A stretch of DNA of 64,000 nt from Phytoseiulus persimilis (lineage: Eukaryota; Arthropoda; Arachnida; Mesostigmata; Phytoseiidae), in NCBI GenBank assembly GCA_037576195.1, contig CM075103.1, forward strand, positions 17,608,001 through 17,672,000. Direction: 5' to 3'. Position numbers and translations under genes: made by a program. Position 1 is the stretch's first letter. The number at the start of each line of letters is the position of its first letter. Below the pieces are notes generated by a model, which was not told where the DNA came from, did no database searches, and saw only the letters and a program-made list of their open reading frames with translations. Shown here in pieces: positions 3,591 to 37,480 of the stretch.

Positions 3591-3944
3591 CAGAATCAGA
3601 CCACCTCGTTGCCTCAATGAATTCACCTTAATATTAACCCGCAGCTCGCCCTCCGCTGGTTTCCACCATTCCGTTCTCTAGAATCTCGTCCGGAACAGCG
3701 AGAACCCACCCTACGCTCTTATTGCGGTCGGGTGTTCGAGAGTTTCGTTTCTTTCTGAATTATCCGATGAATTTATCCTCTGGCAGTTTCGCGTTTCAGC
3801 TGGTTCGGAGAAGAGATTCGGAGAAGCTCTGGATCGTGTCCAACGCTATAAACAAGCTGAGAGAGTTCGCGGTGCCCAGATGGTGGCTCGCTTCAACAGA
3901 GACGTCGAGGGCTCATTCGGCGTAACCACTCGAAGAGATCGACC

Positions 3945-5921
3945 ATGGACGAGGTTAGTGATGTTGGTTTGAAGTTTGTTCTGGACGAGCGCCTAGATCC
4001 AATTAACCCGGAACAGCAAGATCTGTTCTCGGACTTTTCGACTCATTCGGAAAAATCCACTATCGCTTACTTTCGAAGGCTGAGAAAGCTAAGATGGAAG
4101 AACGCGAGCGGAAAAAAGTTGAGGTCAGGAAGCGCCTCGAGGAAGCTAGCAGGCGCAAAGGACGCGACACCACAAAAAAAGGTTTCATGACGGCCGAAAG
4201 GAAGAAAAAGCTCAGGGTAAGCCGATCCGTGAGGTATTCTAGTGGATGTATTCGCATTTTACTCAGCCCACTGCGAGAGCGATTCGAAAGAAACGAGCTC
4301 GTAAAACGCCTTGTGGTCGAGGCCACGTGCCCCGACGTGGACCCTAATTGGTTCTCAAACAGCCAAGCGGAAAATATTCTCCCCGAGGGGAGCAGGTACG
4401 AGACAACGAATCAGTCTTGGGTCGCGGCACCAGTGGAGAAACTTGAGCCTGCGGTACCACACCCACTTCTTCATGCAAACTGTTGGACTGCGTCTGCCGT
4501 CGTGATGCACACAGCGGACGTTTCAACCCTTAGGCATTTGTCAGGTGAGACTCCGTCCTGTTTTATCCACGGAAAGAAAGTTGTCGGGATTACCTGAAGC
4601 CTGTCCTCGGTTTTTCGAGCTGTGCTGTACTCATCAGTTTCGGAAATGAGGGGCTCAAACGTGATGAGCTGAGATTACGGTCGAGTCAATTGCAACGAAA
4701 CGAGTGGAGCGATATCGCTCAAGCAGGAGAGCAACGGGGGCAGTTGAGAACATTGAAATATCATCCAGCAATCGAAAATCTCCGATCTCCGATTCGTGAT
4801 CCGCATTCAATTTGATTTCACTTCCAGGTTGAATGGCTGACGACTCAGGAAAAACTTGCTCTTAACGACCATGGCTCTCAAAACTTCTTCTATGTTTGAT
4901 GGTAGAGTTCTCGAGCGAGTCGTCGCTGAGGTTGTCTCCTCACTGACTTTTCAGAAATTACTGCGTGAGGTGAACCTGAACATGATATCCCAGGAGTACG
5001 AGAGGAGGAAACTGGCTCGTGACAAAGCCATCAAAGAACGATGTGGTCAGCCGAAGAATCTCGATGGAGTGTACGATCTAAGTGAGTTCTCGCCGGTGCT
5101 CACTTTGCGTTGGTGGTTGTGTGTTTCCACGATCGGAACGAGGTCAACGATTCCCGGTTTCGCATTCTTGGCACATTGGTCACTCCTCCTGAAAGCGTGG
5201 GCCACTTGATGCCGAAGCCTGCCGACGGATGAATCATGTATAGGGAGGTAGCGAGAGACGGTTGTCAGAGCTGACGATTCGTTTTACAGAAGAGCTTCAG
5301 GATATCGTCGCCACCTACCATGCTCGAATTGTCCGGCTTGAGGAGCAGAAGTACGATCTTGAATACGAAGTTTGTCAGAAAGACTTCCTCCACAACGAGA
5401 TGACAATCCAGGTCAACGAGCTCCGAGGGAAGTTTGTGCGACCCATTCTGAAGAAGGTCTCCAAGTAAGTACATTTTGTCCGTTACTCCAATCAAGATAG
5501 GGGAGTTCCTCCCCTGTCATGAACAAAGGTAAATAATTGAAAATGGTTCGATCTGATTCTATTCAGGTTCGACAAGCTCAAGAAGAGCATCAGAACAGCC
5601 GAAGGGAGCGCAACGGAGAACCTGCACTTCAGTCGACAATCGCTGAAAGCCGTGAAGAAAAAAGTTATTCTACAGGAGGACAAAGTGAGTCCGTAATGAT
5701 ACATTAAGCCCTGACCACCCTTCGTGCATACAATATACAATACATATACAAGATATAATACTTCACAAAAGAGACCTCGTGTACAGCGCTGGAATTCGTT
5801 CTCATGAGCTTCGGAACGATCTTTCACTGAAAGCGTGTTCCAGGTCGATCGTCCGGAGTGGGCCGCGCAAAAATCCTGTCCTGATGGCTCGGGCGAGCTG
5901 CGTGGCGCCGAAGGTGAATAA
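3945..5921 (+). CDS. Troponin I, divergent copy (copy A)
   Basis: This is a thin-filament inhibitory subunit of muscle, expected in the sarcomere with troponin T and C. The model has six exons: 3945-3953, 4079-4216, 4955-5081, 5290-5464, 5567-5684 and 5844-5921, giving 214 residues with continuous phase. Family marks are VRKRLEEAS then GFMTAERKKKLR near residues 20-49, the ERCGQP motif, the [13 protein letters not shown] helix, and the inhibitory segment LRGKFVRPILKKVSKF. The C-terminus contains RPEWA but lacks the Glu-rich tail of the copy at 8238-9710. The first exon is only MDE before a GTTAGT donor. The exon 4955-5081 (KLLREVNLNMIS...) is the most diverged from the canonical A-L-L-R-K-K sequence. 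Intron positions match the other copy except that exon 5290-5464 is undivided here. Identity as troponin I is very secure; whether it is a specialised isoform gene is inference. Confidence 0.9.
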
Positions 5922-8080
5922 ACATTCTCGGGAAGGTGGGTCAGGGACGTCCAATATCCGCAGGAACTTTTCCATTTACACAACTGACGAATACTTGGCT
6001 CAGATCTTGCCGTAAAACAGCACAGCGTATCGTGCGAAATCCGGAAACTGCGACATTCCGTGCTCGCGAACCTTGCCGCAGACAGTTTGCGATCTAAACT
6101 CTGGAGCGTCACGTTTGGAACTTCGATTCAGAAATGACGTTGTGTCGGAACTCGCCGAATGACCCGGTCCCCCAGAGGCGGAGGACAGGGCTCCGTAGAG
6201 ATATTTCCCAGCCTCGTCTCGAGCAAAGATGGGTCTGGTCCGATCGAGCCGAAGTCACCAGTTGCTCATTATGGTGCCAAATCAGTTGCCACTTATGATT
6301 TGGATCTCGATATTCCGCTCGATGCCCATGGAATTTTTCGGTTCGAAAAAGGAGAAGTCCATCCGCTCCGCGTCACCAAGTCCTACTCGTATCCCCGCGG
6401 GTCAAGCGGTCTCGGGTCATTATTAACCCTCTGTGTGCCCGTGTTCCACCGGAATACTCCCGTGGCATTGACTGACCGGACTGTGACGGAAACTCCGCTT
6501 CCTTCCCGTGGACTGCGGACGGGCATATCTGCTCAAGAGCATAAAGTCTCCCAGAAAAATCTCACGCTGAACTCGTGCGTACTCAGAACGCCTCGTATGG
6601 AGAACCTTGCGTATCAGGAACCTCACGCAAGGAGAACCACGCGTATGAGAAGCTTCGCGCATTGAGGATACTCAAGGTCCTCCTAGTGGAAAGTTCTCGA
6701 TGGGCGAGGTTCTTCCCGCAGAGGATGTTCCTTACGGAAAGCACGCGGGGTCATTTTTGTCTTCTGTATTTGTTGTTTCTCTGGTACGCGCGAGCGCATG
6801 GCAACGGAACGGCAATTTGAGTTCATGTTCTTTGACGCAATTAGGCAATGTTTGCAACATAGAACGCCTGACTCAAACCCCATTTTCGATATTTGGTTCA
6901 CAGATATCGAATCGCTGTCTCTCTGAAACAGGAGAGACCGGCCAACCATGAATTTCACCGCGGGTTGTTCCTTGACGCCATCTTTCACTAGAGACCCTCG
7001 CAAGAGTCGCTGGGGGTGGGGGGCGGGGGGATTTTAAATCGTTGGAGGCTGAGCAGACAAGAACCCATCGGGACGCTGAAAACAGCGCCGGATTCAAAAA
7101 TCGCATGTCCCACGGTATGTGCTACGTTTCTTCGGGAAAAATATTGAGATTCATCGCGGAAGAGGAGGATTCCGAACTCACGCTCCTTATCGGAAGCTTC
7201 CCAACTTGGTTCTAATAAATCATAACCGCAGAGTGCATCCCTATTTGTTCGCCAGTGACATTCTTCAAGTGAATTTCTCGATCGTGATCTCATATCGGGA
7301 AAACATAGAATCAGATCTCTGGCGGAAACCGAGTGTTTTGTCTCACGAATCTCTTCATCAATCAATAAATAATATCCATCGATGGGTCATATATGGCTGT
7401 TTGTGACTGTACATGAGGGTTGCAACAAGCGTGAAATATCACTGTGAAAGCGAGGATTCTGCAGCTCTTCGAATCTAGTAGGCGTATCAGTCGAATCGAG
7501 ACTGTAAAGTTGAAATAGACGGACATCGAAGATACACAGATTGTTGTAATATGCAGAAGTCGAAGAAGACCAGCCTTGAGAGCATTATTCCGAGCTGTTC
7601 TTATGGTTCCTTAGACCTTCCCACTCTTAGAAGAATGACAAAACCGCAGACATCCCCCAACTTGAATGCTGGGTGCTCTCAATGGAGTTGAGAGTTCCGT
7701 CTGTTCGCAGCTCGCCCTGGGAACAATACTGTCTTATATTTCTCAGCGAGAGAAGCTTGACTGGAATGAGAGCATTGCGAACGATACTTCTGGCACACAT
7801 CCTTCACACAACATAAGCAAATTGGAGAGAGGGCGAACGAAAATGGAATCTGGTTCTCTGAGTATCCGGGGCAGTCTGTTGTTGGCTCCCAGCGAGATGT
7901 CTTCGTCGATAGGGTGAGTAGCTGTTCCCGTTCGAATTTTCGAGACACTGCTACTCGCAATCAGAACGAAGTTGGAACGGTCGACCAGACATCAGAGCAG
8001 GAAAGCTTTTATTCGCAACAATTATTATCTTAGCGATGTTGTATTGACATCGTCAACATTGGCATCTTCCGTTCGTTACC
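5922..8080. other. Intergenic region between convergent troponin I genes
   Basis: I see no convincing gene. Part of it should be the 3' UTR of the plus copy, though the nearest plus-strand AATAAA motifs are far downstream (about 7215 and 7366). A patch at 6580-6670 has imperfect short repeats built around GAACC and GCG, which I cannot interpret. Confidence 0.35.
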
Positions 8081-8086
8081 TTTATT
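8081..8086 (-). terminator. Polyadenylation signal of troponin I copy B
   Basis: AATAAA on the minus strand, about 150 nt beyond the TGA at 8240-8238. A second AATAAA at 8013-8008 is an alternative. Confidence 0.55.
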
Positions 8087-8237
8087 GTGATTTCAAACGA
8101 AAATCGCGTTGACAATACTCTCTTTCTCCATCTTTACCAACGGGTTGCACGCCAACTGTAGGTTCCGTTCCTTGTTCCGGGTCAGCTCGAATCGAGACGC
8201 GAGCCGGTCGTCTTTGTGAATGTTTGCGTCCAATGGT

Positions 8238-9710
8238 TCATTCCTCTTCTTCCTCGGCTCCTTCTTTCTTGGCTCCGAGAGCCCATTCGGGTTTGTCGGT
8301 CTGAGAACATGGGAAATCGGCGTTAGTATCAAGGTGTTGAGTCCCTTCTCAGGGCCTCATTTGTAGGAAGTCATGAACTCCGGAACGAGGTTGAAGCCCG
8401 CAGACTGTCCCATGCCTTCCGGGAGAACGTGGCGTCAACGCGAATTCGCGCATGTATCGCAGATCGTGCGGGGCACTCGGCCCTCTCGTCAGTGGCAATT
8501 CCAAGTGCTCTCATTATACATATATCCCAAGCCTGGACAAAAGATAAATAGCTTTGCCTAAAACTCCACAAAAATTCCCAGCTCAAACCTGTTCTTTTCC
8601 CTCGTCCAACTTGAAGTCTTTTTTGACACACTTGAGATTCGACCGGAAGTCGACTTCGGTTTTCACGTTCTTGATCTTCATCTTGTCGAACCTGCCACGG
8701 AGAATATCCCATGAGCAATCTATGGCCGGATCAGATTTGATCGAGTGGGCGTGGTTTTATGACTCACTTTGAAACCTTCTTGAGCGAAGGCTTGACGAAC
8801 TTTCCCCGCAAGTCGTTGACTTGAATAGTCAGCTCGTTGATCTGCAAGCACACACAGAGGGCACATTAGGCGGGAGGAGCAATCTTGTGAAGGATCATCA
8901 GATTTTTTCCGACGATGCCCGCAGGAAAATATATCGAACGGTTCGAAACTCACGAGGAAATCCTTCTGGCGGACTTCGTACTCGAGGTCGTATTTCTTGT
9001 CTTCGAGATCCAAGATCCTTGCGTGGTATTCCTTCATGATTTGTTGGAGAGAGGCTGTGACATCAAGTTGGCTGTGAAATCCACTTTCGTCGGCATGAGG
9101 TCGATCCGCCTCCTCGGAGCTTGCGTCAGACCTGCCCACTCACAGAATACTCACCTTCGTTCGCTCCTTCGAGGCTTCTGGGTTGGCCGCACCTTTCGGA
9201 GATTATTTTCTTCCTCGCCTCAGCTTTGCGTTCTTGTTCCTTTTTGAGCTCATCGGCGGCCTTTTTACGGAGCAAAGCCTGTGGGAAGAGAATCGAATAA
9301 ATCAGAACGTATCGGTTTTTCCCTCCTCATAGCTCTGGATCACACAGAAATCTCGAACGCTCGACGGTATTTCCCGAAAACGTAGCGACCATCCTGGAGA
9401 ATTCGGAATCAACAAACGTTACCCTGAGTTTTTTCTTCCTCTCGGGGGTCATGAATCCTTTCTTCTCGCCGCCGCCCTTCTTGGCTTTCGACGCTTCCTC
9501 CAACCGCTTCCGAACCTCGGCCTTCTTCCGCTCCTTCTCCTCCATTTTCCTCTTCTCCTCCTGAACGAACGCACCAAGTCAATAAATAACGTATCGTCTC
9601 GAGCCGAACAATCTGAATACCAATTTTATGTTTACGAATGCAGAGTCATGGCCTGGTTATCCTCTGTGGCGCATGACTTCTAAGCGACTCACTTCTGAAA
9701 TGTCCGGCAT
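8238..9710 (-). CDS. wupA: Troponin I, canonical copy (copy B)
   Basis: This is a muscle thin-filament inhibitory protein, orthologous in type to Drosophila wupA. The seven exons on the minus strand are 9710-9693, 9560-9423, 9278-9155, 9054-8954, 8841-8768, 8691-8589 and 8300-8238, giving 206 residues with all phases consistent. The order is a short acidic start (MPDISE, ending at a GTGAGT donor), a Lys/Glu-rich helix with [13 protein letters not shown] and [12 protein letters not shown], the [18 protein letters not shown] helix, ERCGQP, the [13 protein letters not shown] coiled coil, the inhibitory motif [27 protein letters not shown] and a terminal run of five Glu. Length and motif order match arthropod troponin I. 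It is convergent with copy A. In the aligned segment after ERCG the two copies share 42 of 57 residues. I saw no alternative exon set, but mutually exclusive exons in the introns cannot be excluded. Confidence 0.95.
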
Positions 9711-12700
9711 GTCGATTCAAATGGAGAGGGCTGGAAATTTAAAAAAATTGGAGTATTGGAACATGTCGCTTCAAAATTATTTTAGCCACGAGCCCAAGTG
9801 CGACTGCCGCCTGTACCTACAGAGGGGACTCCTGAACCTGTGTCTTTGGGGCCGGGAGCTTGGATCGGGAACAACAAGTTTTCCAGAGCGGTCTAGAAGA
9901 CGATTTTCCCTCAAAACAGAGGATAGTGGCGATTCCCCTGTTGAGCTCGACAGCAGAGCGCAGTCTCGCCCACACCGCGATGGCAGTCAACCGAAAATAG
10001 ACCTGGTTTCATAGCAGAGCCACAACTGGCCGCGGCAACAGCCGCCGATATGGCCCTGTGGTGTTCCACAGGCAAGCGAGCGATGGCTGTGCTTCACTTA
10101 AAGTGTCAAAAAGATCTCTACACCGCTTCGAGAACACACAAGCTCGAAACGAGGCCGGAAACGATTTCCGGCAATGAGTGGGAAAAAAACTCCTCATAGC
10201 TTGTTTTTTCCTGATTTTCCGATTGGCGCCGTTCCACTCAGACGATTGGCTCCACCTGATGGCGCCAATTCACGACGGTTGCCCTCCGCCGGGTTGCAAG
10301 TCCTGAATCCCAATCCTCATGGCCGTAGTTTTGGAAATTCCTACCCGATAGGATCTGCCGCTGGTTTTAATGGTCTCTCACTGATTTGTAATCCAAGGAG
10401 AAGCGCAGTATTGAATGCATCAGGAGTCCGACCATGGCATTGGCGTCCCATCGACAGACGCGATCCACCGCTTCCCGCGGGAAAGCTTTCGCGTGAGCGT
10501 TCTCTGGTCCTCTATCGGGCGGTGACGCAAGCGATTCATTGAATATCTTCGTGAGATCGAAGCAACCACCCTTTATGAGTTCATGAGTTCGATCAGTTCA
10601 AATTTGTTCTCCACAAAGCACCAGAGTTTCGCCCGTGTTCGGCATATCTAGAGGCGACGTTTTTCTTCCTGTCTTGCTCGGAATCATTGACTGGATCGAC
10701 TGCGATTCTGATCAACTCGCTATGGGATCCGTAGAACGAGTTTTTTTTGCATTGAAGTTGAACGGTCTCGATCATTTGGAATGATTCCTCAGCTCTGTCG
10801 ATTCCAGATCCTCCAATGGCAAGGTTGCCAAGGTGTTCTGCGGGGCCAGAGGTCGGTCTATGTTGCCGGTAAACGCCCCACACAAGACAGTTCAGGCACT
10901 AGGTGGGTTCGCAGGAATCAGCCGGAGGAAATTCCAATGCAAGACCTCACGTGTGTCTTCTAAAATATACTCCGCTCGAGTTCCTACAGACGCATTCAAC
11001 TGCCTAGCTGAGCGCGTAGTTCTAAATACAGGACACCGCCAGTCAGGCGGCTCGCAATCTTCCGTGCTCGGACGCACCCACATCGTTGCGTTCTGGCAAG
11101 GCCGTTCCAATCGACAGACAGTTCTAGTACATGAATCGATACGGACATCGTAGATCGGCTTCGGTTCGGTTATGGGATAACATCGATGATCTCGTCGGAC
11201 TCGGACGGTTCCCGTATGCGCAAAACAACTGAAGACGAGTTGATCTTGACATCCGCATAGACTTCGTAAGAGCAACCCAGAGGTCCTGGCACTCATTAAG
11301 AAGAGCTTTGTAAACGGCTGGCACACCGCGACGAGCGATCACGAGATCGCTTTGTGTGTGGGCTTTTGAACGCTGTTAGATGCCTTCGCGAATAATTACC
11401 TCAACTTTTCGAGAAACCCTCCGGCGTCGTTCGAGCTCTTGGAGCGAGAACAGTTCCACGTATCGTGAGGAAAACTCGTCGAAAGCCTAAATTCCCTAGC
11501 TACGGAAGCCTCGATCATCCTGTACGGATGGAAGTACCATAGCGCTGAACCTCTACCGCATCATCGGAGGCTCTGCCCCGGTATCAGCTAATGGTTCCGA
11601 CCTCTGCGTAAACTTCCCTTTTCTCCCTCTCAAATGTGGTGGTCGATGCGATGCGTTCCTTGGAACATGGGGTGGAGGTTTTTTTCGAGATCACACCAAC
11701 TTCGCTTCCGGTGTTTCCTCGAGATCTCTGTCCGTCATTCGCGGTAAGGAGAATTCATTCTCTCAACAGCATGAGGCTGCGAGTCATTTAAAGCAACCCG
11801 AGAGGTCCGGGAGAGCTTCCAGAAAAACATCACCACAAACGAGCTGTACAGTTCCTGGCGGCGGTGGCGATGACGGGCCCGCTGGTCAGACGCTGGGCTA
11901 GCGTTCTCGAGATGTGGTCGAGTTTGGTGCCATAGGGTCTTCTCATACGACGAGACTCAGCCTCCCACCCACACTGGCTCGCCTTGCTTCTTCTACGGCC
12001 GACTTTCGTCGAGCGGGCTCTAGAGATATGAGGTTTGAGTTCAAGGCACAAACTGTGGTGGCCAACCGGTTTGACCACGCCTCCCGTGTCGCTAAGATGC
12101 ACAGGCGCTTTGATTATAAACAGCCAGCTGGTTTGGTGACTTCGATTCGGCGTTTCTCTCGATTATCTCAATCAAATCTGAACCAGTTTACACTAGCCTC
12201 GTTCCAAGAGCGGGTCGGACGCGATCCATTCCCCGAGAGCATTCATGATGGACTGAATTTCGATAACCGCCTGTTCCACGGTCTCGAAGGATTGATTTGG
12301 GCGCTGAGACGGCCGGCGAGCACCTTGTTCCCATCTCGGCATCCGGGTCGTCAGAGCAAACCACTGCGTCGCCGATTTCCGGGTTTGAAGTTGCATTTAG
12401 TCAACATCTAGAATCTCAGCATTCTCAATCGATGTTCGTCGGTTCTCATCGTGCACCGCAACCTGCGACGACAACAACACAGCCCCGGGTCCCGGATGCC
12501 CGAATTTCTCTGAGCCCGAACGGTGTAATCCCCGAATTAGCGGGTCTGTCCCGGCCTGCTTTTTGAGTCTGCCGCGAGGATAGAAGAGCATTTCCTGGGA
12601 GATCCAGCTCCGTTTCGTCGATCGGAGAACTGTTTGAGGAGTGCAAAACGGCTCCGCAAGCCGAGCTTCCGCGCAAGTCCACCAGCCCAGCGGGACACTC

Positions 12701-15700
12701 GCGTCCCAGGTTGCCGCGATGCGGATATTCAGCTTGACACGCCCACTCGGGCGACTTGAGAACCACAGGCCAATCACAAAATCCAACTGGCCTCGCGAAC
12801 GGCTGGGAAGAAACGTTAACAGACACTCTCTGAATCAGATTTCGCCTATACAGAAAACTCGAAATCCTCGAACTCACTGCGGGCCTGTAGAGAGAGGTGA
12901 GGTGCCGAGCGGATTCGACAGGAGATGACGTACCTGTGTTTGTGCGAGCTTTCTAACGAGGATGTCTCCGTGAACTCGCTACCAGAATCTCGCCCGTTTG
13001 AAGAGAGGGTGTGGGCTCGTTGCCTGAACTGCTGGCTCTCCGGCTGGCCGCTTGGCGAGCCTACGGACCGAGCTGTGACTCATGCCGCCTGCGGTTTCTG
13101 CCAACAGACAGCGCCATATCTTCTCCGCGCGAGAAGCAAACCTCAAAACGATGCTTGATTGAAGGTGGGAATTCCCGGGAGAGCGAGTTCGCGACGGAAG
13201 TGACCGGAGGTATCGCCACCGCTCTTCAGACTCCAGATGGGAGTTCGCGAGGCTTCCTTCGTCAACCAACGTGGGCTTCGAATTGAAGAAGACTGGAGAA
13301 ACGGGTTCCAGCCGAGACTACGACCGCGTTCTGTAGCGACAATCGCTTCGACACTGTACGCAACGCTCTGCAAGTACTCAGCGCTGTACTCGAGGTAATT
13401 TCGGAGCAGCTTGAAACGGGCCTCGAGACCTGAATGCGCAAGGACTCCTGGTGCGTGCGACAGCCATTTCTCTCTCCTCTATGAACATCAACGGAAGAAA
13501 AAAAAATTGTAACCACATCGATCTTTCCCGCATTTTCCCCGTCAAGTGGTTTCGTCCCGCCTTTGCGCCGTGGGCTTCGGAACAGCATCATCCGTGTTCC
13601 CAGAACTCTGGTCTACTCGGTTCGCGACTAAGTCACGTAGTCAACCATTACGCAGGTATGACAGTGACGGAATGAAGACTGAAGGGATTGAATGAAGACT
13701 TGGAAAAACGCACGACTTCATGTCTGAGCGCTGCAGCGGCGGTGTTTCTCATTCGTTTCCGATCATAATTGTCATTCCATGAGGATCTGGAGAATGTTTC
13801 ACAGAATGGTCCGTCGCTCCAGAACTTCACTTTCTAGCTTCAAAGTTTCGAGCCACCGTCCCACATGGTTCTTCGAGAGTTCGGGAGACCAGCTTGAGAA
13901 CTCTGTCCGTCCTACGACGAACGTCTTCTTGTTCGCTAAGCGTTAGGATAGCTCCCTCAACGGGGCAAAAGCCGTGAAACCCTGCTCTGAGGACCGCAGC
14001 GTAGCTAGTGGTGAGAGACGTCTCGCACCGCGATAATAAATCGTGCAAACGCGGCATGGTTTTCAAAATCCGATAGATCATGTCCGAGGTTCAATACCCT
14101 GGGTACAGTCTAGAATGAGCTGAACTCCCTTTCCGTTTCCCCAACTATCCGGACCGGTGGGCCCCTTCCGCTATCGGAGATGTTTGAGGTCCGAAACAGG
14201 AGTTTTATTCCAGATTCCGAATCATGAGCTACATGAGATGAAGGCTTGGAGCAGACGAAACACAAATCGAAACTCACTTGGTGAAGAGCGTTTCTCGATT
14301 CAGTTCACATGGTTTGCAACACCTCGTGATTTCTCGCGGTTCTTGATAACCCTACCAGCCCCAGTCTGGTTTACCATCGATGATCCTGAACGTTTCTGCA
14401 CGCCAGAACTGTCCGTACTCGAGACTTTCGACGGTGAAGACCCGTGCGAAGGCATCAGGAGTTCACAGGATTCACTCTCGGATCGATTGACATGGGCAAT
14501 TGGGAGCCTTGATTTTCGACCAGTTGATTGGCCCTCGGAACGAGCAGGACGCCGGATCGGTTCATCCTCCTTTTCTTTTGCGGCGGTTCTGAGAGAAAAT
14601 ACTTCGATGAGCGGACTCTCGCGCTCACTAGGCAAGAATAGAGAGACTGAACCGCATCTTCACCGCGAGCAGGTTTGAAAGGGCGTGCGACGTCGTTTGG
14701 AGGATTAAGCCTCTGCAGCGGCAAGCTCATGGCAGTAGTGGCTCCGAACCTCCGATCTCGGAGCGATTGTCGAACAAAAGTCAACTTGACAGATGTCTCG
14801 AGCTTTAAACTCAGGACGCGAACGGAAGTTTGCATCCGGTGATTTGGAGCTATAGCCCGAAAGGAGTTTGCGTTGCTCACAGCTGTTGGTTTCCAGGGAC
14901 AGGACGTGCGGCTTTTCAGTTCAATACAACTCACACGATCTGTCAGGTAACATAGCATATTCGAGGGAGTTACCATATGCACACTCAGCCTTCCATCGGC
15001 CGAGTCACCGGTGAGGTTTTCGCGTGCGCGATGAACTTTCCTGCATCCAGCCACTGACAACCTCAGATTGAGAAAGACTGAAAGCGGAGACTGGCAGATA
15101 TCTAAGGTCGCAGCACTCCTGTTGTGCGGAAATTCCGTACAACAGGAACAATCAGGAACAGTTGAAGCCCGTGACGAAATTTGGATCTCTTCGGGAATGT
15201 TTGGGCTGGGCTGCCGCGATGAACGCTTATGCCTAATGATGCGGGAACGACGCAGCTGCGTTGCTCCAACTCTCCTGAGAAGTTGATCATTCCCAACTGC
15301 CGGAAGCTCGCGGCGCTCTCTGTCGTCCATCGCCGCCGAATCGAACGGAAACGGAGCACATGATCCGCGAGCCACCGATATTCCACCGGGAAAGTTATTG
15401 ACTGCGTTCGAGAAGCACGAGCGTCGCATTGATGAATGAGGGAGAACGTGCTCGCTTCGTTGCATTCAATGATACGTTTCGGATTCAACCGTCATTGCTT
15501 CTGTCGATCTCGATGCCCTCAGTTTTGATTGACCGTCGACAGTATCCCATTCCTTGGAAGAGACCAATTTTCCCTGTGAATTGCAATTGGGAAAACGTGC
15601 CCCCATGCATGTGAATGTCCTCTGGAGTTGAGCTCGGTCCCGTGAGAGTAACAGCTCTGATGTCGGAAAAATCTGTTCCAAGCGCGTGGAGGCTTTGCAA

Positions 15701-16327
15701 TCATCTGTCTAACGAGAGCGTCTTTTCGGTCCCTGTGCGTGAATACCCTCTTACTCCACGTGTGTTCTCTGGCTTAGCCGCGATTCGGGTTCCATGCCTT
15801 GAGGAAGTTCCCGCGTTTGATCTCCAGTCATCACTCTTCTGACAGGACTTTCGTCGTTTTTGAAGCCTTTGGCCCGATAGATCGGTCAGATGGACTGCGG
15901 CTTCCACCCGAAAGGAATGGGTCTCTTCGGAGGGAGGGTTGGAACGGCGTAAGAGTCTCGGAAGAGGGGCACAGGCTGTGGAACTCCGAAGAAGGAGTTC
16001 CGGAGCTTTCTTCGTGCATGTCTTCGCCGTTTTTCGGGATGTGCATTTAGGAGCGTTTTGAATTTCGCGCTGCTGGGAAGAAGTCTCTTCGCTGTCGCGC
16101 GTGTGACATGAGTTCGATTAGTCATGTAAACACCGTCGCTGGAAGACTGACCAATCACTGGGATCTTGTTTGAACGGAACTGGAAGGCTGTTCCGGCCAA
16201 CACATCGCTTCAGGAACGACTTCGAACGTACCCTGCTTCGTTGCGCCGGTTTGATGAAGACAGTGGTCGACCGTCATCTATTTTCTCCTCTCGTCCTCGA
16301 TTCGGAGCTGCCCTTCCTCCCAAGAAA
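9711..16327. other. Long stretch without a confident gene
   Basis: It should include the promoter of troponin I copy B near 9711-9900. The rest gives no recognised protein. Two spots look weakly coding. One is the minus frame 14081-13827, which has no ATG that I trust and ends in TAG. The other is the 14157-15465 block, listed separately. Minus frames at about 10880-10600 and 11326-10892 are open and partly cysteine-rich but have no supporting splice chain. A near-perfect palindrome lies at 15118-15147. Confidence 0.35.
14300..15465 (-). CDS. Possible coding block of unknown product, strand unsure
   Basis: A minus-strand frame runs from an ATG at 15465 to 14455, 336 codons without a stop. 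That is long for this composition. It is Arg/Ser-rich with a basic patch (PPQKKRR) near its end. A second minus frame (14635-14300) overlaps its 3' part in another phase. A plus frame open over 14157-14678 without an ATG start also looks plausible (for example PAPVWFTIDDPERF). They cannot all be real. I recognise no domain and found no exon chain that settles the strand, so this is a pointer to possible coding DNA, not a gene model. Confidence 0.25.
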
Positions 16328-17137
16328 ATGAGTATTTGCGATCTTCCTGATGAGATCCTGGGTCGAATCGCCGAAATGCTTGACCTCAGATCGTTGACAG
16401 CCTTCGGCGAGGTCAACGCTCGCTTCCGACATGTTTCCGAGAACATCAGACTTCGTTTCGTGAGGATAGAAGGCTCATTGGAGTCATCGTCATGGGGCTA
16501 TCTCGAGAAAAATGGACCCCGGGTGCGAGCTCTCGACTTCGGGGGATGCACCACGGTCAACGACTGCTTCCGCGAGGTGCTGGTGGCGTGCCCGAACACG
16601 ACAGATGTGAATTTGATCGGTTCGCACTGTTCCTTCGAGAGAGTTATGAAGGATCTTGAATTACTGGACAATCTGAGCACGCTGAGTCTCCCGTTTTATC
16701 CGACATCTGGGAGTGGACTGACCGACGCGCAGCGCAGAGTGTTCCGGGGCCTGCGGAAGCTTTTCTTGGAAGTTCGACCCGACTTCCTGCCGCTCATGTT
16801 TGTGATACTGTTGCTGAACGACTGCTTCGCGCTCAGAGTTTGCCACATCAATATCACGACGAGTTGGCCCCGTTCCTTTCCCTCTGGCTACCGGCCAGCT
16901 TGGCTGTCGCCGGAACGATGGGAAACTCTCGAAACCCTCATCTGCACCTCCGGAGACGCGGCCTCTTCGGAGGTGCACAGAAAATTCGTCGAGACTGTTG
17001 TGATCAACGCGCCGGTGGTGGCGCGCCCCAAGATTCGTCGTGCCGAAGGATGCTTCGTTTTCAAACGCGGAGGCGTAGATGGAATCATTTTCCCATTCGA
17101 CTCCAGATGCCAAATACGACAAAACTGGGTCGAATGA
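16328..17137 (+). CDS. F-box protein, small
   Basis: Likely a substrate-recognition subunit for an SCF ubiquitin ligase. The ATG at 16328 (context AAAATGA) opens a 269-residue frame. The upstream in-frame codon at 16166 is TTG, so I prefer 16328. The F-box is at the N-terminus: CDLPDEILGRIAEMLDLRSL at about residues 4-23, continuing to about residue 45. The remainder has leucine-rich-like strands (RALDFGGCTTVNDC, DNLSTLSLPF) and ends in a His/Trp/Arg-containing tail. The start resembles the F-box of the larger minus-strand protein at 58653-60602 (both LPDEIL), suggesting one lineage-expanded family. It appears intronless. The partner substrate is unknown. Confidence 0.75.
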   Translation: MSICDLPDEILGRIAEMLDLRSLTAFGEVNARFRHVSENIRLRFVRIEGSLESSSWGYLEKNGPRVRALDFGGCTTVNDCFREVLVACPNTTDVNLIGSHCSFERVMKDLELLDNLSTLSLPFYPTSGSGLTDAQRRVFRGLRKLFLEVRPDFLPLMFVILLLNDCFALRVCHINITTSWPRSFPSGYRPAWLSPERWETLETLICTSGDAASSEVHRKFVETVVINAPVVARPKIRRAEGCFVFKRGGVDGIIFPFDSRCQIRQNWVE

Positions 17138-22127: not shown

Positions 22128-22527
22128 TGAGGCGGAAATTCTCAGGGATCCGACGACATACTCCAAGAGATCGCTGTTCCTCATCAGCTGGAACGACCAA
22201 CTCGGCTCAAAGCAGTCCAAACTCGTTATTTCTGTTCCGACATCCCTGTCGCAAACTCGAGTTCTTTTTCTATACACGTCTGAACATCGATGGCTCTCCG
22301 ATCGCCTTTCCGGCGGAAGAGTCAACGACTGTCACGTAGCAGCGCTTTTCGTCGGTGGTGGTTGAACACCGGGTTGTTTTATACGACTCGAAGCGTTGCC
22401 GAATACCAGGCCGCGTAGTGTGTTACTCGTGAGCAGATCAGCTGAAGAGACACAATGTCATTGAACAGTTTGTGAAATTGAGACTTCTGCACGGGCGGGA
22501 GAGGTCCATAGATTGGCTCGGCCCAGC

Positions 22528-23427
22528 ATGGAGGTTCCCCCGCGCGCTGTCGGAGTGATCTCGGCGTGTGTGCTCGCGCTCCGACCGTGGAGCTTACATA
22601 TCTCACTCGAGCCTGTGGCCTTAGGAGCTGCCTTAGCTTACCGACTCGGCAATGGTTTCAGTATCTGGGCTTTCCTCGGCGCCGCGGTGACGGCCCTGTG
22701 TGTACATTCAGCAGGAAACGTTGTCAACAGCTACTTCGACTACGCAAAAGGCGTGGACTCCACGTCCGTACTTAGCAGTGACGCACTGGTTCGACTCGGG
22801 GCAGTGCTCTACGCTCTGGGCCTAGCAGCGTTCCTGGTGCAATTCACGTTGACTCCCGACGGCCGCTTGTTGGCTCTCGTCTTTTTCGGTGGCATGTGCT
22901 GCTCATTCCTCTATACCGGAGGTCCTGGATTCAAGTATATCGGTTTGGGAGACGTGCTGGTGATGGTCACGTTCGGACCGTTGAGCGTACTGTATTCTTT
23001 CTTATGTCAAGCGACAGTCTTTAGCCCATCGAGTTTGATCTCCGTTTTACTGTACGCCGTGCCGTTGGCGTTGAACACCGAGGCGATACTCCACGCAAAC
23101 AACCTGAGGGACAGAGTTGCCGACTCACGAGCCGGTATCGTGACTATGGCGGTGGCGATCGGTCCCCAGCTTTCCCATGTAATGTACGCGGTGCTACTCT
23201 TCGTCCCGTACATAGCGTTCGCGGTCGTAGCTTTTGCGTACGGGGCCATCTCGATGCTGATGCCTCTCATAACGATGCCGACAGCGTTCCAACTCGAAAG
23301 AGAATGTCGCTTCGGACACCACGCCGAACTCGATCGACATACGGCTCGGCTCAACACGTACTTCAGCGTTTTCTACGTACTGGCCATAGCGATGTCGCAG
23401 AAGCTCCCCGGATTCGGAGCGGTTTGA
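22528..23427 (+). CDS. UBIAD1: UBIAD1-type membrane prenyltransferase
   Basis: This is a UbiA-superfamily enzyme. In animals UBIAD1 (Drosophila heix) transfers geranylgeranyl to menadione to make menaquinone-4, in ER/Golgi membranes. The ATG at 22528 gives 299 residues in one exon; the TTG at 22513 in the same frame is not a preferred start. Landmarks are LALRPWSLHISLEPVALGAA at the first helix, the Asp-rich motif AGNVVNSYFDYAKGVD around residues 70-85, LYTGGPGFKYIGLGD, and the second Asp motif ANNLRDRVADSRAGI near residues 191-205. The carrier has eight or more hydrophobic helices. The loop after KGVD is shorter than in the human protein. The match in motif order and length is close, so identity is secure. 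It lies between the hAT element and the minus-strand TMED10 gene. Confidence 0.93.
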   Translation: MEVPPRAVGVISACVLALRPWSLHISLEPVALGAALAYRLGNGFSIWAFLGAAVTALCVHSAGNVVNSYFDYAKGVDSTSVLSSDALVRLGAVLYALGLAAFLVQFTLTPDGRLLALVFFGGMCCSFLYTGGPGFKYIGLGDVLVMVTFGPLSVLYSFLCQATVFSPSSLISVLLYAVPLALNTEAILHANNLRDRVADSRAGIVTMAVAIGPQLSHVMYAVLLFVPYIAFAVVAFAYGAISMLMPLITMPTAFQLERECRFGHHAELDRHTARLNTYFSVFYVLAIAMSQKLPGFGAV

Positions 23428-24300: not shown

Positions 24301-26159
24301 TTAGTCGATCAACTTCTTGGACTTGAAGAATTTTCGCAAGTATAGAATTTGCCATACGACTAGACCCATCAAACACAGCATCCCTATCATCGACGAGTAT
24401 AGCACTCTGTTCGCCGTTGATTCGTTGGTATCCCGCATTTCTTCTTCGCGCTGTCTCATGTGGGCGAAATCTGAAATTCGAGAGTGACACTTGATGAGAG
24501 CTCCTGGCTGTGGCTCTCCGTCATGACCGTCATGATCGAGTTAAAGCATCGCTCGATGCAGCGGAGGAATTTCACATGAAACTCCCTGCACGGGCACGCC
24601 AGACCCGCGGCGAGAATATTTCGGCAAGGAACATCTCAACAGCGAGCTTTCTGAATGCAGCGCCCCAAAACGCTTATCAGATGATCTCCGATGATGAGAA
24701 GCTCCTGTGCGGAGCTGTAATTCAGAGCTAAACCCACCTTTGACAATACTCTCGCTGAGATCTTCGAGTTGCTGCAGCTTGACTTCCAGAGGCTTGAGTT
24801 TTTCGACTTCGGCAAGTTTGTCGTAATTGATCGCTTCGGCACCATGCTTCAGACTCAATTGGATTTCACGATCTTGGCCCTGAACGCCGGGTGGTAGTTT
24901 TGTGATGAAGCAAACCTATTCGAGTCGAAGAGAGAGTTAAATATATGAGGTGAAACGGGAGAGCAAGCGCTCGAGCGCATCCTTCGGCATCTCGTTCAGG
25001 AGGAAGACTCTGGCATACATGCATTTCAGAAGCACTCGGAGCTTTCGGAAGTCGGCTAACAGACTGCTGTCTCAGATTACCTCAAAAACGTCATACGTGT
25101 CAGTTGTAAACGCAAATTTCCCTTTGTCACCGTGAATGTTCTCTCTGTGCGCTAGGACCTGTCCACTGGTATCAGTGACCTGAAAGGCAAGCGTGTTTGC
25201 AATCGAACGCTATTCAGATCGTCCTGCCGCGTCGTTCATTCCGATCAAAAGATTCATATTGTCCCTGATCGATCCTGAAATCCGAAGGTGTTGACATATA
25301 CGACCCCAAGCAGGCATTAGAATATATTTTCAGTGAGCCTTCTCCCGACTGGGTGCCTCAGACTGGATCGGACCGTTCCGGATGAGATGGAGTTTCAGTC
25401 GATCGCAAGAAGTAAACGAACGGAAGAATTCGCGGACGGGTTTAGAGTCCAGATGCATCAGGAAACATCTCCAACACGGAACACCATGAGCGCAACATTT
25501 CATCGTCGCACATGTGTCACACGAGCAGTCGCTAGAAAGTCCATGAGGCTCTGATTTCAGATATCATTAAGAACCGGAGATCGCTACCGATGGAAACAGT
25601 TGATAAAGTAGGATTCAGAACGAGCCGGAGTTGGTCTTGGCTCGGGCACACGCGAAATTCGCCGAGTGACATCGTATGTCACAATGCGATCGGAACCGGG
25701 CTTGAAGACATAGGAAACGGTCTCTGTCCGAAACTGGCATTCAGTAGATGAAAACCGAAGGCGTTCTCCGTTGATAACAGCCCACATCTTGCTGCTGAGA
25801 AGCGCCACAGCGGACACCGCGTGAGCATCGGAACGGTTTTCGCCGAAAGTTTGACACAACAGCTGGCATGGGGAAAACCGATTTTCGCGAGGATTCCTCC
25901 TGAAATCCCCCCCGACCGTTACATGAACAGGGTCTCGGTTCACCCAGTTAGTCTTTAGGCTGATAGGGAAGCGATGAATACTCACGACGAGGTCTGTTTT
26001 GTGTCCAGGAGAATCGGAAAGTGTGTACTCGCCGGATACCAAAACACCTTTCAGAACTTCTTCCTTGAGGCATCGTTTACTGTTGGGTTTCAGGAAAAAC
26101 GTGATGCCATCAATACCTTGGGTCAGGCAGACCGCTACAACGATGCAGCGGAGCCACAT
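24301..26159 (-). CDS. TMED10: p24 family cargo receptor TMED10 (p24delta)
   Basis: A COPI/COPII vesicle cargo receptor of the early secretory pathway (Drosophila baiser type). There are four minus-strand exons: 26159-25986, 25179-25081, 24915-24738 and 24470-24301, giving 206 residues. In order they encode a signal peptide ([14 protein letters not shown]) and the start of the GOLD domain with KRCLKEEV, whose Cys pairs with the one in FEVCF. The strand [18 protein letters not shown] spans the exon 2/3 junction. A coiled coil [19 protein letters not shown] follows, then [18 protein letters not shown], one transmembrane helix, and the tail [12 protein letters not shown]. The tail keeps the FF export and di-lysine retrieval signals of this subfamily. 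Every intron phase agrees. Intron 1 is about 0.8 kb, the others are short. It is very close to the animal TMED10 pattern. Confidence 0.95.
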
Positions 26160-26927
26160 CTCGGAAATTTGAAATTTAGGTTCTCTCGTGACGTGTAATT
26201 CGCAAGACTGTCTAGAGCCGGCCAGCTGACAAACGCACGAGGAGAAGCCTCGCTGACGCGGTCCCGGAAATCGGGAACGAGAAATTCCCGAAAGCTCTCT
26301 TACATTCGGAATCCTTCTTAGAGCATGTTGCCCTTAATCATCGGCGAACGTGGGCATTGAAAGAATGATTTCCAGTCACCGCTGGAGGAAGCGCTGCCGG
26401 GAACAAATCTTCTCCGAGGGAGCCATTGAAGCTTCTATGTGTTAGAAAATGTCTGTTTGGGAGAGAGCGCAGTGAACTTCAACAAAATTCAGCGTCTCGC
26501 GGGCGGGACTGGATATTGTCGATAGACGAACCGAGACACGGCTTAGATCAATAGAAGGGGAACTGGGAGACTCCCAGGTTCTAGATTCCCCTCGGAGCTC
26601 TTTGCCGCGTTCAACGGTCACCGGCAATCGCAACGCATCGCACGAAATCAGACATCGAAGTAAGCAGTCAACGATGCGCTTCGCTTTCGATCTTTACAAC
26701 ATAAGACCACCGACTAAATGAATGAAAATCTAACATCAAGCAAAACTGGCAGGGGTGCAGGAATCATTGACAGTTACTCATGTCTCGCGTTCCAAGTCGA
26801 AGAGGTGCCCCACCAGCACACGGAGGCCGCGCCCCCTGGCGGGCCTCGTGCGAGAAACTCAACACTATAGTGTCGACGGATCACTTCTTCGATAGCCGGC
26901 AACGAACTATCCAATCCTACCGCAACC
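26160..26927. other. Intergenic space between divergent TMED10 and NDP kinase
   Basis: TMED10 (minus) and the kinase (plus) start here head to head, so both promoters probably lie in this 0.77 kb. I see no canonical TATA box well placed for either, and no other gene. Confidence 0.4.
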
Positions 26928-28851: not shown

Positions 28852-29841
28852 TCAGAATACTAGAGGCATATAAGACTGAACTTGTTGGTAGGGCGGGTAC
28901 TGCTGCTGGGAGGCAGCCGGACGACCGAGGTACTGCCATGTGAGGAAATGGGGTGGTACCTGAGGAATTTGAGCGCGAGCTCCGGTCTGAACTCGACTCT
29001 GGAACGACGGCACTCTCGACACCTGAGGAATCGCAACAGCCGGCACAGGCACGTAACCGTGCACGCTGTAGGATTGCACCCGGCTGTAGGCGACCTGTTG
29101 CGGCAGAGGAACGAAGAAAACGGTCGCCGGGAAGTCCTGAGGTCGTGGTGAGAGAGCTTCCAACTGCAGAGGGGGCATCTGTGGCTGCACGATCACCCCG
29201 TCGACGTGCTGGACCGGCTTCGGAGCTGCCGGTTCTTTCTCTGGGACCTCGGTAACTTGCTCTACGCTCTGCAGCGATTGGTCCACAGCGGTGTCGTCCA
29301 CCTTCCTCACAGCTTTGTCGGCGCCCTCCGGCCTATCCTCAATTCTCACGGGTTCTGATGCTTTGGTGACTGTGGTGACCGCGACAGGATGGGCCTGTGC
29401 CACCAATATGTCCACCGGGGCGGCCGCTGGTGCATCCTGATCCTTGACTTCCACCGAAGCTCGGAACCCATTCTCATCGGCGATGTAGTTGACGATGCGT
29501 TGGGTTCCATCAGCTTCCTTGACGCCATAGCTCCCCGCCTTCATTCCCGGGCTCCCAGTTTCCTCGTGGAATGTTCCCTCCTCGCTGGCATAGCCGAAAG
29601 CGTAGTTGCCCTTGTCCTGTGAAAAGACCAGATCGTTAGCGCGAACGTTCTCGTCTCCCTTCGCCTCCGAAGGTCTCGTCTGCGACGGATGAGAAACATC
29701 TAGTCTGAGACCTCCAGAGCTCGACCTCTCGAGTCTCCAGAGTCTCGAACTCACGTTTTCCGTGCGATAGCTCCTGCCTGGCTGGAGGGGAACGGCGAGA
29801 ACGCAGGCTACGGCTGCCGAGAGAATGATGAAGCTTCGCAT
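28852..29841 (-). CDS. RR-type chitin-binding cuticle protein
   Basis: This is a structural protein of the arthropod exoskeleton, secreted by epidermis. The ATG at 29841 starts a 329-residue open frame. Residues 1-17 form a signal peptide (RSFIILSAAVACVLAV). The extended Rebers-Riddiford domain lies at about residues 75-135: GNYAFGYASEEG, then GSYGVKEADGTQRIVNYIAD and ENGFRASVEV. A Pro/Val/Gln-rich tail follows, with QPQMPP and a Tyr/Gln-rich end. Within the frame, codons 30-54 look like an in-phase 75-nt intron: they start GTGAGT directly after RTEN and end CATCCGTCGCAG before TRPSE. The mature protein may therefore be 304 residues, with the intron after the signal-peptide exon as is common in this family. 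A TATA box and initiator lie just upstream. Confidence 0.9.
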   Translation of the reverse strand: MRSFIILSAAVACVLAVPLQPGRSYRTENVSSRLWRLERSSSGGLRLDVSHPSQTRPSEAKGDENVRANDLVFSQDKGNYAFGYASEEGTFHEETGSPGMKAGSYGVKEADGTQRIVNYIADENGFRASVEVKDQDAPAAAPVDILVAQAHPVAVTTVTKASEPVRIEDRPEGADKAVRKVDDTAVDQSLQSVEQVTEVPEKEPAAPKPVQHVDGVIVQPQMPPLQLEALSPRPQDFPATVFFVPLPQQVAYSRVQSYSVHGYVPVPAVAIPQVSRVPSFQSRVQTGARAQIPQVPPHFLTWQYLGRPAASQQQYPPYQQVQSYMPLVF

Positions 29842-29860
29842 CTTGGTTTTCTGTGTTCCG

Positions 29861-29895
29861 AACTGAGTGAGGTCTCGGCCGTCTCAGCTTTTATA
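29861..29895 (-). promoter_or_regulatory. TATA plus initiator core promoter of the cuticle gene
   Basis: On the minus strand TATAAAAG occupies 29895-29888 and the arthropod initiator TCAGTT occupies 29866-29861. The initiator A (29864) is 31 nt from the first T of the TATA box, the canonical spacing. The predicted 5' UTR is then about 22 nt before the ATG at 29841. Confidence 0.78.
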
Positions 29896-34749: not shown

Positions 34750-37480
34750 ATGCGAGAACGTGGCACATTCGAGCAAGCACGTTCAGGGTTCGAGGTTCCG
34801 TATGATTTTCTCGTAACAGATGTTCGTTCGTTGACAACAGCAGTGGAGCTCTTCGCGGAGCCGGGTTCCCGACGAGAAACAAATGGCTCTGAAGAGAACG
34901 ATGGAATCGTGGACATCATCTCTCCGGCCGTTCAGGTTCACGAAACCAATTACACCGAATGATGGTGTGAGTGTAGCTCACAGAATCAGACCCGTATCTT
35001 CCTCGGAGAAAAGTTCCCTCCATTCACGGCACGTCCGCGTTTTCAGACTCTGTCCCGAGCCAGAGCAGCGGGACACAAACGCTCCCTGGGTACATCCGAT
35101 GTGACCGGCGGTAAGCGCTCAATATTGTCGGTTGAGCCTTTCAACCTGCAGATCGAGATCCTCCGGTGTTTTGGAGTTCCGCGGGTGGAATGAATGGTCT
35201 CGCGGATATTAAAATTTCAGCATCCATCGAGTCTCCGAAGAAGACACGCCTCGACATCAAACGGAGCTCAATTGAGAAGACTTCAAAGCTTCGCGTACTT
35301 CTGACCAGTCGAATCAAGGCCCCAACAGTCGTCAGAGGGAACGTGACCAAGCGCAGAACTTTGATTCCCATTCATCAGAAGGAAGTCCCGGAGAAAGGTT
35401 CGCGCACCCTCACTCTTTACTCGTCTTGGACTCAAACGGGCATTGGGGATTTTTTTGTGGAGTCCATACAACCGCAAACACGGTTCTCGTGTGAAAAATC
35501 CGTATTGGGACTTCCTCAATGTTTCTCCTCGCAGCTATTACGTCATCGATAACTGACGATATTTGTGAGCGGCTCAAAGCTCTCGAACTCAAGGTTGAGG
35601 AGAACACAGAGGTGAGTGGTTCCGCATGCTCGAGAACCGCAATGATCGAATCGTCCTAAGCAGATGAAGTTGAACAATGATGGATCTCGAATGCATCCCA
35701 TCTGTATCTTGTTGCTGTTCCCAGCTGGCGCAATGTCGAATCAAGGAGCTCCTCGAGAGAAACGATGCCTTGGTCGAGGAAACTGACCGGCTGAGGATAC
35801 TCCTCCAAGGTAAAATCGACGAAATATGGTGAGTGCCGGGATCTTGGTGCGGATTCGTCAAATCCGAAGCCCTCCTTCTGCTACGAAATCTTCAAGGATC
35901 TCGTTTCATCTCCAGGGAGCTGAAGAAGGACGGAATCGAAGCGGCGAGGAAGCTGAACGACCGAGAGCTCGAAGTTGAGCAGCTCGAGGCTCGGCTCGAT
36001 GGCCAATCGCATGCCTTCGCGGATCTGGAGAAGAAGTATCGTACTCTCCAAGTCAAGTTTTCAATTGTGAAAAAAATGGCGGATTTCTGGGACTCTGAAA
36101 GCACAACGCTGCGCAACCTCCTTGATGTCGAGCAGGTGCGCACCAAGGAAGTCGCTGAAGCGCTCACGACAGCTACAGCCGAGAACAGTTTGATCAGATC
36201 GAAGCTCAGGAAGAGCTCGGCGGAGTTGCAAAACGTTCACAACAGGCTCCTCGAAGCGCAGGGCAACATCCAAGTGTATGCGAAGATAAGACCAAGATCC
36301 GCTCGGCGAATTCATCGCTGTGTCCTCAAACGTCAGAATCAATCGATCGTTGTCGAGAAACTCCCTCTGAAGAACGGGAGGTCGAACCAGGTTTCGTTCA
36401 AGCTCGACGGAGTTTTCGACACTGATCGCTCGATGAGTGACATCTTGGACGCTGTCAAACCTCTGATTCAATCGGCTGTCAACGGTCACAACGTCTGCAT
36501 CCTGACCTACGGGTCCAGTGGAACGGGAAAAACCCATACAATGGAAGGTCGACCGTCGGCACCCGATGGTTCTAGGCTCGACGATGATTCGGAAATCGGA
36601 ATCGTTCCTCGGGCTTTCATGAAAGCGCTGGAGTTCGTCGAAGAACAAAGCGGCTCGGTGTATCGTTTCACACTGGAAGCCTCTTTCATAGAAATTCGCA
36701 ATGACATCATCTACGATCTTTTGGACACAGACAGGAATTGTCCGCTGCGGCTCTGCCCGGATCCCGGGAGGTGAGTCGTGAGAATCCATTCGGTTGCCTG
36801 TTTCCAATCGAATTGTTCGAGAGCGAAGACAACCCCACTCATTCTCGTTCCAGGAGGAAATCAGCGGTTGCGGAAAATGTCAAGGCAGTGCAAATCACTT
36901 CGTCGAAACAGATCCTGGAGCTCATGGAGACGCTCCGGAAACGAAGGCGCTCCGCCCAATCCAAGAGCGACGGGCCATCGCCACGTGCTCATCGTGTTTA
37001 TCAATTGCAGATAACTTCTGAGTGCGGGGAGCCTCAAGCGATACGAACTAGTGTTTTGAACCTGGTCAAGCTCGCCGCTGCCGATAGCGTTAGGGGAATC
37101 CTCGCCGAAGGAATAAGCTCGATCGAAACCAAAAATATAAACTCTACACTAGCTGCACTGCTGTCAGTTTACAGCAGCCTCGGGAGCAAGGTAGGGACTG
37201 TGTGAAGTCATTCGATTGGAGTGGCGGAATCGTTTCGATAGATGCTCAAGGAATATTTTCTGTGCCGAGGCGCTTCGACATTCTTTCTGCTGCGCAGGCG
37301 TCTCATGTTCCGTATCGGAATTCGAAGCTCACCCACTTTCTGTCGTCGGTGCTCAACAACGAATCGAAATCTCTCATCTTGGCTCATCTGTCGCCCGAGG
37401 AAGAGCAGCTGACCAGCAGCATAAACACATTAAAAATCGCACAGAAGTTCCGAGAAATCCATATTGACAGCGAGTCTTGA
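34750..37480 (+). CDS. C-terminal-motor kinesin with degenerate switches
   Basis: Kinesin-14-like microtubule protein. Eight exons, 34750-34935, 34984-35110, 35152-35397, 35535-35611, 35725-35828, 35916-36770, 36854-37190 and 37298-37480, give 704 residues with unbroken phase. It begins with a basic, Ser/Thr-rich tail (HKRSLG, TKRRTL). A coiled coil covers about 210-360, and the motor starts at GNIQVYAKIRPRS near 363. The P-loop GSSGTGKT (446-453) is intact, and the late motif VPYRNSKLT is intact. Switch I, normally N-x-x-S-S-R-S-H, reads SPRAH at 574-578. Switch II, normally D-L-A-G-S-E, reads KLAAAD at 604-609, losing the Asp and Gly needed for the ATPase cycle. It may bind microtubules or a partner without cycling ATP, comparable in logic to the yeast non-catalytic kinesin partners Vik1 and Cik1. 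The first ATG is a choice; an upstream 5' exon is possible. Confidence 0.85.

Follow-up and report, generated by a model that had tools for sequence, protein, structure and literature searches.

The window analysed here is a stretch of 64,000 nucleotides on contig C3 (C3:17608001-17672000) of a 181-Mb mite genome of 127 contigs; GC content is near 51%. Within it, two troponin I (TnI) genes, both complete and both with introns, lie tail to tail, as a sequence-only reading of this DNA had proposed. We refer to the plus-strand gene, with its start codon at 3945, as TnI-B (B1), and to the minus-strand gene, with its start codon at 9710, as TnI-A (A1) (Table 1). The stop codons are 2.3 kb apart, the frames (645 nt in B1 and 621 nt in A1) are open, and both proteins match the Pfam Troponin family PF00992, with scores of 136.2 bits for A1 and 101.5 bits for B1 against a cut-off of 26.2 (the B1 protein used in this search was one residue off the final model, with E for K at position 92). 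PF00992 also takes in TnT. When A1 was compared with solved structures, the top matches were TnI chains (E 2.5e-18), the closest being those of cardiac muscle, with TnT chains at 2.2e-5 or worse; that comparison covered A1, and the assignment of B1 to TnI rests on its identity to A1 at 117 of 198 positions. Both proteins contain GKF..P.L..VS, the TnI inhibitory peptide motif (GKFVRPILKKVSKF in B1), and GKF..P.L..V is also found within the cardiac TnI chain matched by A1.

The two genes share much of their architecture. Each of the five B1 introns has an A1 counterpart at the same position and in the same phase (exon lengths were read by hand on the alignment). The intron that separates exons 4 and 5 in A1 is precisely missing from B1, whose exon 4, at 175 nt, equals A1 exons 4 and 5 (101 + 74 nt). 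The five introns, together with the open frame, rule out B1 as a processed pseudogene. Two of the A1/B1 intron positions, again read by hand, are missing in the C gene (see below), and could represent either shared gains or losses in C. Upstream of A1, the aligned DNA is on average 81% identical to a copy of this region on contig C2, and three blocks within it (window positions 9951-10100, 11901-12100 and 12851-13150) that are 88-98% identical are candidates for a promoter or enhancers.

Table 1 Features of the window (positions without a contig name) and of related TnI loci elsewhere in the genome
Feature	Location	Strand	Remarks
Putative MEF2-type site (3628) and TATA-like site (3847) upstream of B1	3628..3852	+	consensus matches alone
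TnI-B (B1), diverged troponin I, 214 aa	3945..5921	+	spliced model, all introns GT-AG; PF00992 E=5.7e-29
B1, six coding exons	3945-3953, 4079-4216, 4955-5081, 5290-5464, 5567-5684, 5844-5921	+
B1 exon 3	4955..5081	+	rewritten H1 helix
B1 exon 4	5290..5464	+	coiled coil (IT arm) and inhibitory peptide; carries the Cys
B1 exon 5	5567..5684	+	rewritten switch/mobile segment, 7-residue insertion
TnI-A (A1), canonical troponin I, 206 aa	8238..9710	-	spliced model, all introns GT-AG; PF00992 E=1.1e-39
A1, seven coding exons	9710-9693, 9560-9423, 9278-9155, 9054-8954, 8841-8768, 8691-8589, 8300-8238	-
Candidate promoter/5' region of A1	9951..10100		88-98% identical to C2 copy, 50-bp identity profile
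Block with collinear, interrupted copy at C2:2376793-2359993	5174..13171		ten blastn pieces, 67-91% identical
F-box	16151-17134	+	weaker match, below Pfam cut-off
UbiA prenyltransferase	22465-23424	+	over Pfam cut-off
EMP24	25587-26333	-	weaker match, below Pfam cut-off
Cuticle protein (Chitin_bind_4), insect-type domain	28855-29883	-	over Pfam cut-off
Kinesin motor piece	35833-36771	+	over Pfam cut-off
ASC sodium channel	44061-45353	+	over Pfam cut-off
TPR protein	49036-49605	+	over Pfam cut-off
A2, intact canonical TnI	C2:2371.2-2372.5 kb		genome searches
Broken B copy	C2:2376.7-2376.2 kb		genome searches
C copies, inverted pair	C1:16623.1-16626.0 kb and C1:16649.1-16646.2 kb		genome searches
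C 3' fragment	C1:16635.3-16635.6 kb		genome searches; blastn C1:16634885-16635761

The TnI gene family and the copied A-B block

Searches of the genome with PF00992 (15 matches), the B1 protein (21 matches) and the C protein (29 matches) led to the same places and, as the matches were read exon by exon, yield counts that are lower bounds. The pair in the window turns out to be part of a larger family: there are at least five intact genes, namely A1 and B1 on C3, A2 on C2 and two copies of the C gene on C1, and in addition two fragments, a broken B copy on C2 and a C 3' fragment on C1. A2 is identical to A1 at 203 of 206 residues, with a dN/dS of 0.043. The C genes are intact, and each has two alternative 101-bp exons (4a and 4b), which correspond by alignment to the variable exon of the fly gene. 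The C frame breaks if both of these exons are skipped or both are included, and they are predicted to behave as mutually exclusive exons do. The two C copies, whose 4a-form coding sequences are identical, form an inverted pair with 99.2% identity across 4.9 kb and 94-95% identity in the DNA on either side, with outer ends that lie further out; the large inverted duplication that carries this gene, predicted to be alternatively spliced, was seen at C1:16620000-16626539 and C1:16652197-16645728.

Exon 4 of A matches 4a at 28 of 34 residues and 4b at 21 of 34; for exon 4 of B the corresponding values are 22/34 and 16/34. A query with the 4b form (E 0.1) gave no second exon-4-like match at the A1 or the B1 locus, and with a single exon-4 version at each locus A1 and B1 were rejected as alternatively spliced genes of the wupA type. 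Having one version each, A1, A2 and B1 are thus splice-locked at this exon, whereas the C1 genes keep a fly-like alternative pair, so that splicing diversity and gene duplication probably coexist in this genome. The earlier description of the minus-strand gene as canonical stands, with the correction that A1 is not the fly-type spliced gene, which sits on C1.

The collinear alignment of window positions 5174-13171 with C2 indicates that a block containing A and B was copied between the contigs; on the C2 side, about 7.5 kb of extra sequence lies between C2:2370439 and 2362956. The aligned stretch ends inside B1 intron 3, and the C2 copy of B is therefore without exons 1-3; as read by eye, it has also suffered a frameshift and a lost splice donor in exon 4 and the loss of most of exon 5. 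Past the break where its 5' exons are missing, at about 2377.8 kb on C2, we noted by eye a C2H2 zinc-finger-like frame. The JC divergence between the two blocks at aligned positions is 0.249 for B introns (n=293), 0.252 for intergenic DNA (n=1439), 0.170 for B exons (n=276) and 0.031 for A exons (n=621), with 0.229 for A introns and 0.218 for the region upstream of A.

Exon 4 of B1 and that of its C2 copy differ at 16 amino acids in 50 comparable codons (one more is gapped). At 13 of these 16 positions B1 keeps the A1 residue, at none does the C2 copy keep it, and at 3 neither does (two-sided sign test on the 13 polarised differences, 2.4e-4); with C in place of A1 as the reference, the counts become 12, 0 and 4. 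The case for selection depends on exon 4, since exons 1-3 and most of exon 5 are missing on C2 and the six differences in exon 6 (25 codons) can hardly be polarised (0, 0 and 6 against A1; 1, 0 and 5 against C). Decay, which the sequence-only reading had entertained for the plus-strand gene, is thus at odds with a fully open frame and with a split of 13 to 0, by which B1 looks maintained; exon 4 of B1 has been constrained since the block was copied to C2. The dN/dS between B1 and the broken copy over exons 4 and 6, 0.49, is about what is expected from one neutral and one constrained branch.

Remodelled segments of TnI-B and the age of the A-B split

Segment by segment, A1 and B1 are identical at 35/49 positions in the N-terminal part, 13/30 in the H1 helix, 5/10 in the linker, 32/47 in the coiled coil, 13/15 in the inhibitory peptide, 12/30 in the switch/mobile segment and 7/17 in the tail; for A1 against the 4a form of C, the values are 46/50, 24/30, 5/10, 41/47, 14/15, 19/31 and 14/21. 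The excess change in B1 is thus largest in H1, which we take by homology to be the site for the C-lobe of troponin C (TnC). In vertebrates, TnC binds through its two lobes to H1 and the switch segment of TnI; the coiled coil is the part that joins TnT, and the inhibitory peptide the part that attaches to actin. B1 therefore differs most in the TnC-contacting segments and in the tail, the inhibitory peptide and coiled coil being better kept, and it has an insertion of 7 residues beyond the inhibitory region. These comparisons bear out several features of the plus-strand gene that had been read from the sequence, namely a kept inhibitory motif, a helix rewritten after KKKLR, a Cys in the coiled coil (EVCQKDF) and the absence of a Glu-rich tail. 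The Cys is also present in the broken C2 copy and so predates the block duplication; Cys numbers likewise differ among the alternative TnI exons of the fly, as described in PMC8011728.

Between A1 and B1, synonymous sites are saturated (pS 0.848), which indicates that the split is old; a dN of 0.393 was obtained, and the dN/dS ratio that had been suggested as a check on the pair is precluded by this saturation. In an LG+G4 tree of seven sequences, B groups with the outgroups, outside A+C, with a support of 65 (46 in a six-sequence tree). Of five topologies compared, A+C was the best; the AU test rejects none of them (p 0.13 to 0.81), and the topology that places B with the fly lies outside the bp-RELL set. 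The tree is compatible both with a split of B from A and with an earlier one.

Codon usage also sets B1 apart by one measure. Its ENC is 54.9, whereas A1 and A2 have values of 41.0-42.4 and the two C forms values of 37.9-42.1; the weaker codon bias would be in keeping with a lower or narrower expression. The argument depends on the measure, since CAI computed against the C gene puts B1 (0.56) close to the A genes (0.59-0.60).

Candidate roles of TnI-B

On balance we favor, with modest confidence, the view that TnI-B is a functional, separately encoded isoform with altered TnC coupling. An old duplication would have left it tail to tail with the canonical copy. TnI-B would still build a troponin complex through its coiled coil, and its kept inhibitory peptide would still block actin-tropomyosin; the altered H1 helix, switch segment and tail would couple differently to TnC, possibly to the product of one of two TnC genes, and TnI-B would in this way make some muscles or stages respond differently to calcium. 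The TnC pairing in this scheme is drawn from vertebrate structure and function. Counting against altered coupling, H1, the switch segment and the tail vary between A1 and C too, the linker has changed no more in B1 than in C, and B1 shows changes in its coiled coil and N-terminal part as well. Of the subfunctionalised isoform that had been proposed at the outset, what holds is two real, complete genes and constraint on exon 4 of the diverged one; a dedicated use in a special muscle is a possibility.

Candidate partners for TnI-B are encoded elsewhere in the genome. A fly-type TnC probe (seven matches) and a human TnC probe (14 matches) point to two TnC-like genes, at C4:9768039-9768446 and C1:5921062-5921463, each a single uninterrupted match of about 135 amino acids and 67-68% identical to the fly-type probe (34% to human TnC). 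The other five matches of the fly-type probe are calmodulin-like places already matched by human TnC; by eye, the loci at 33.58, 19.67 and 2.45 Mb on C2 and 12.05 Mb on C1 are calmodulin or calmodulin-like and were rejected as TnC. One of these, C2:33576343-33576786, is an intronless frame and a possible retrocopy, and another, at C2:2.452-2.455 Mb, is split (both were named by eye). Two TnT-like genes, with open exons read by eye, lie at C2:36.709 Mb and C3:1.445 Mb, places that the genome searches for TnI also reached. Six tropomyosin matches, two of which score above the cut-off, all fall at a single locus (C1:30.59-30.61 Mb). With two genes each for TnC and TnT, a second troponin complex is possible. 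A bolder proposal, which we regard as rather doubtful, is that TnI-B forms a dedicated complex with one TnC and one TnT on shared tropomyosin, giving certain muscles another calcium switch, and that diversity has moved from splicing to a gene family with the spliced gene retained.

Several other accounts of B1 must be weighed against altered coupling. B1 may be maintained and yet biochemically equivalent to A1, adding dosage or another expression pattern, with its changes reflecting drift in tolerant segments. The switch segment, tail and linker are indeed the most variable between A1 and C as well, and the near identity of A2 to A1 suggests that TnI dosage may be selected; H1, however, has departed from A1 much further in B1 than in C, even though B1 exon 4 has seen little change since the block was copied, and we consider equivalence rather unlikely. 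Unlikely to a greater degree is a role for B1 mainly outside the sarcomere, in cell polarity, proliferation or the nucleus, as for some fly wupA isoforms: fly TnI isoforms are described as acting in cell polarity and proliferation, and one as entering the nucleus (PMC8011728), and the higher ENC of B1 would suit such a role, but the inhibitory peptide and a large part of the coiled coil are preserved in B1, as expected of a thin-filament component, although this is compatible with a non-sarcomeric role even so.

That B1 is a decaying duplicate we regard as highly improbable; the broken sister on C2 suggests that a second B copy is not needed, but in B1 itself the splice sites are intact and the frame fully open, and exon 4 gives the lopsided polarisation described above. 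Equally little credence attaches to the extra TnI copies being assembly artefacts or unpurged haplotypes. The near identity of the inverted C1 pair would suit that explanation, and the second C1 copy, alone of the five genes, could plausibly be an artefact, but the aligned non-coding DNA of the C3 and C2 copies has diverged at about 19-21% of its positions, and these copies lie on separate contigs of 38.9 and 52.0 Mb.

Related systems and other features of the window

Nematodes have multiple TnI genes (unc-27, tni-1, -3 and -4) and so provide another invertebrate example. Like the vertebrate genes TNNI1/2/3, named in PMC8011728, the mite genes supply isoforms from separate loci; unlike them, they include a tail-to-tail pair and stand alongside an alternatively spliced gene, and we infer that the duplication was independent. 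Drosophila wupA, the one TnI gene of the fly, in which exons 6a-d are mutually exclusive (PMC8011728; fly TnI splicing is also treated in PMC13322953), encodes the same protein family and resembles the C1 genes with their two alternative exons, but in the mite TnI is also split over separate genes of which A1, A2 and B1 have one exon-4 version each. Because flies make all TnI versions from one gene, at least five intact copies are unusual. Among the titles and abstract openings listed from open-licence literature, none described more than one TnI gene in a mite or tick. Vertebrate TnI gene families and one-gene TnI diversity in flies are already known; what appears to be new is an arthropod family of at least five predicted genes with a remodelled copy.

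In the fly, loss of one dose of the single TnI gene is reported to be lethal, and the authors of PMC8011728 argue there that dissociation from a single gene needs isoforms to be split among duplicates and would even then be apparent only. With five or more intact TnI genes, of which some are splice-locked and one is remodelled, the mite offers a natural test of that idea, and also of the balance between splicing and gene duplication in muscle. Males of a phytoseiid mite, Neoseiulus cucumeris, can be haploid (PMC6902594), which would sharpen the question of TnI dosage if it holds for this mite as well.

The remaining genes in Table 1 come from a Pfam scan of 20 of the 41 frames of at least 150 amino acids in the window, 13 of the 20 being without a match. 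We also observed two tandem arrays, at C1:16640257-16642531 and C3:17558001-17560749, that repeat about every 45 bp and are about 77% alike.
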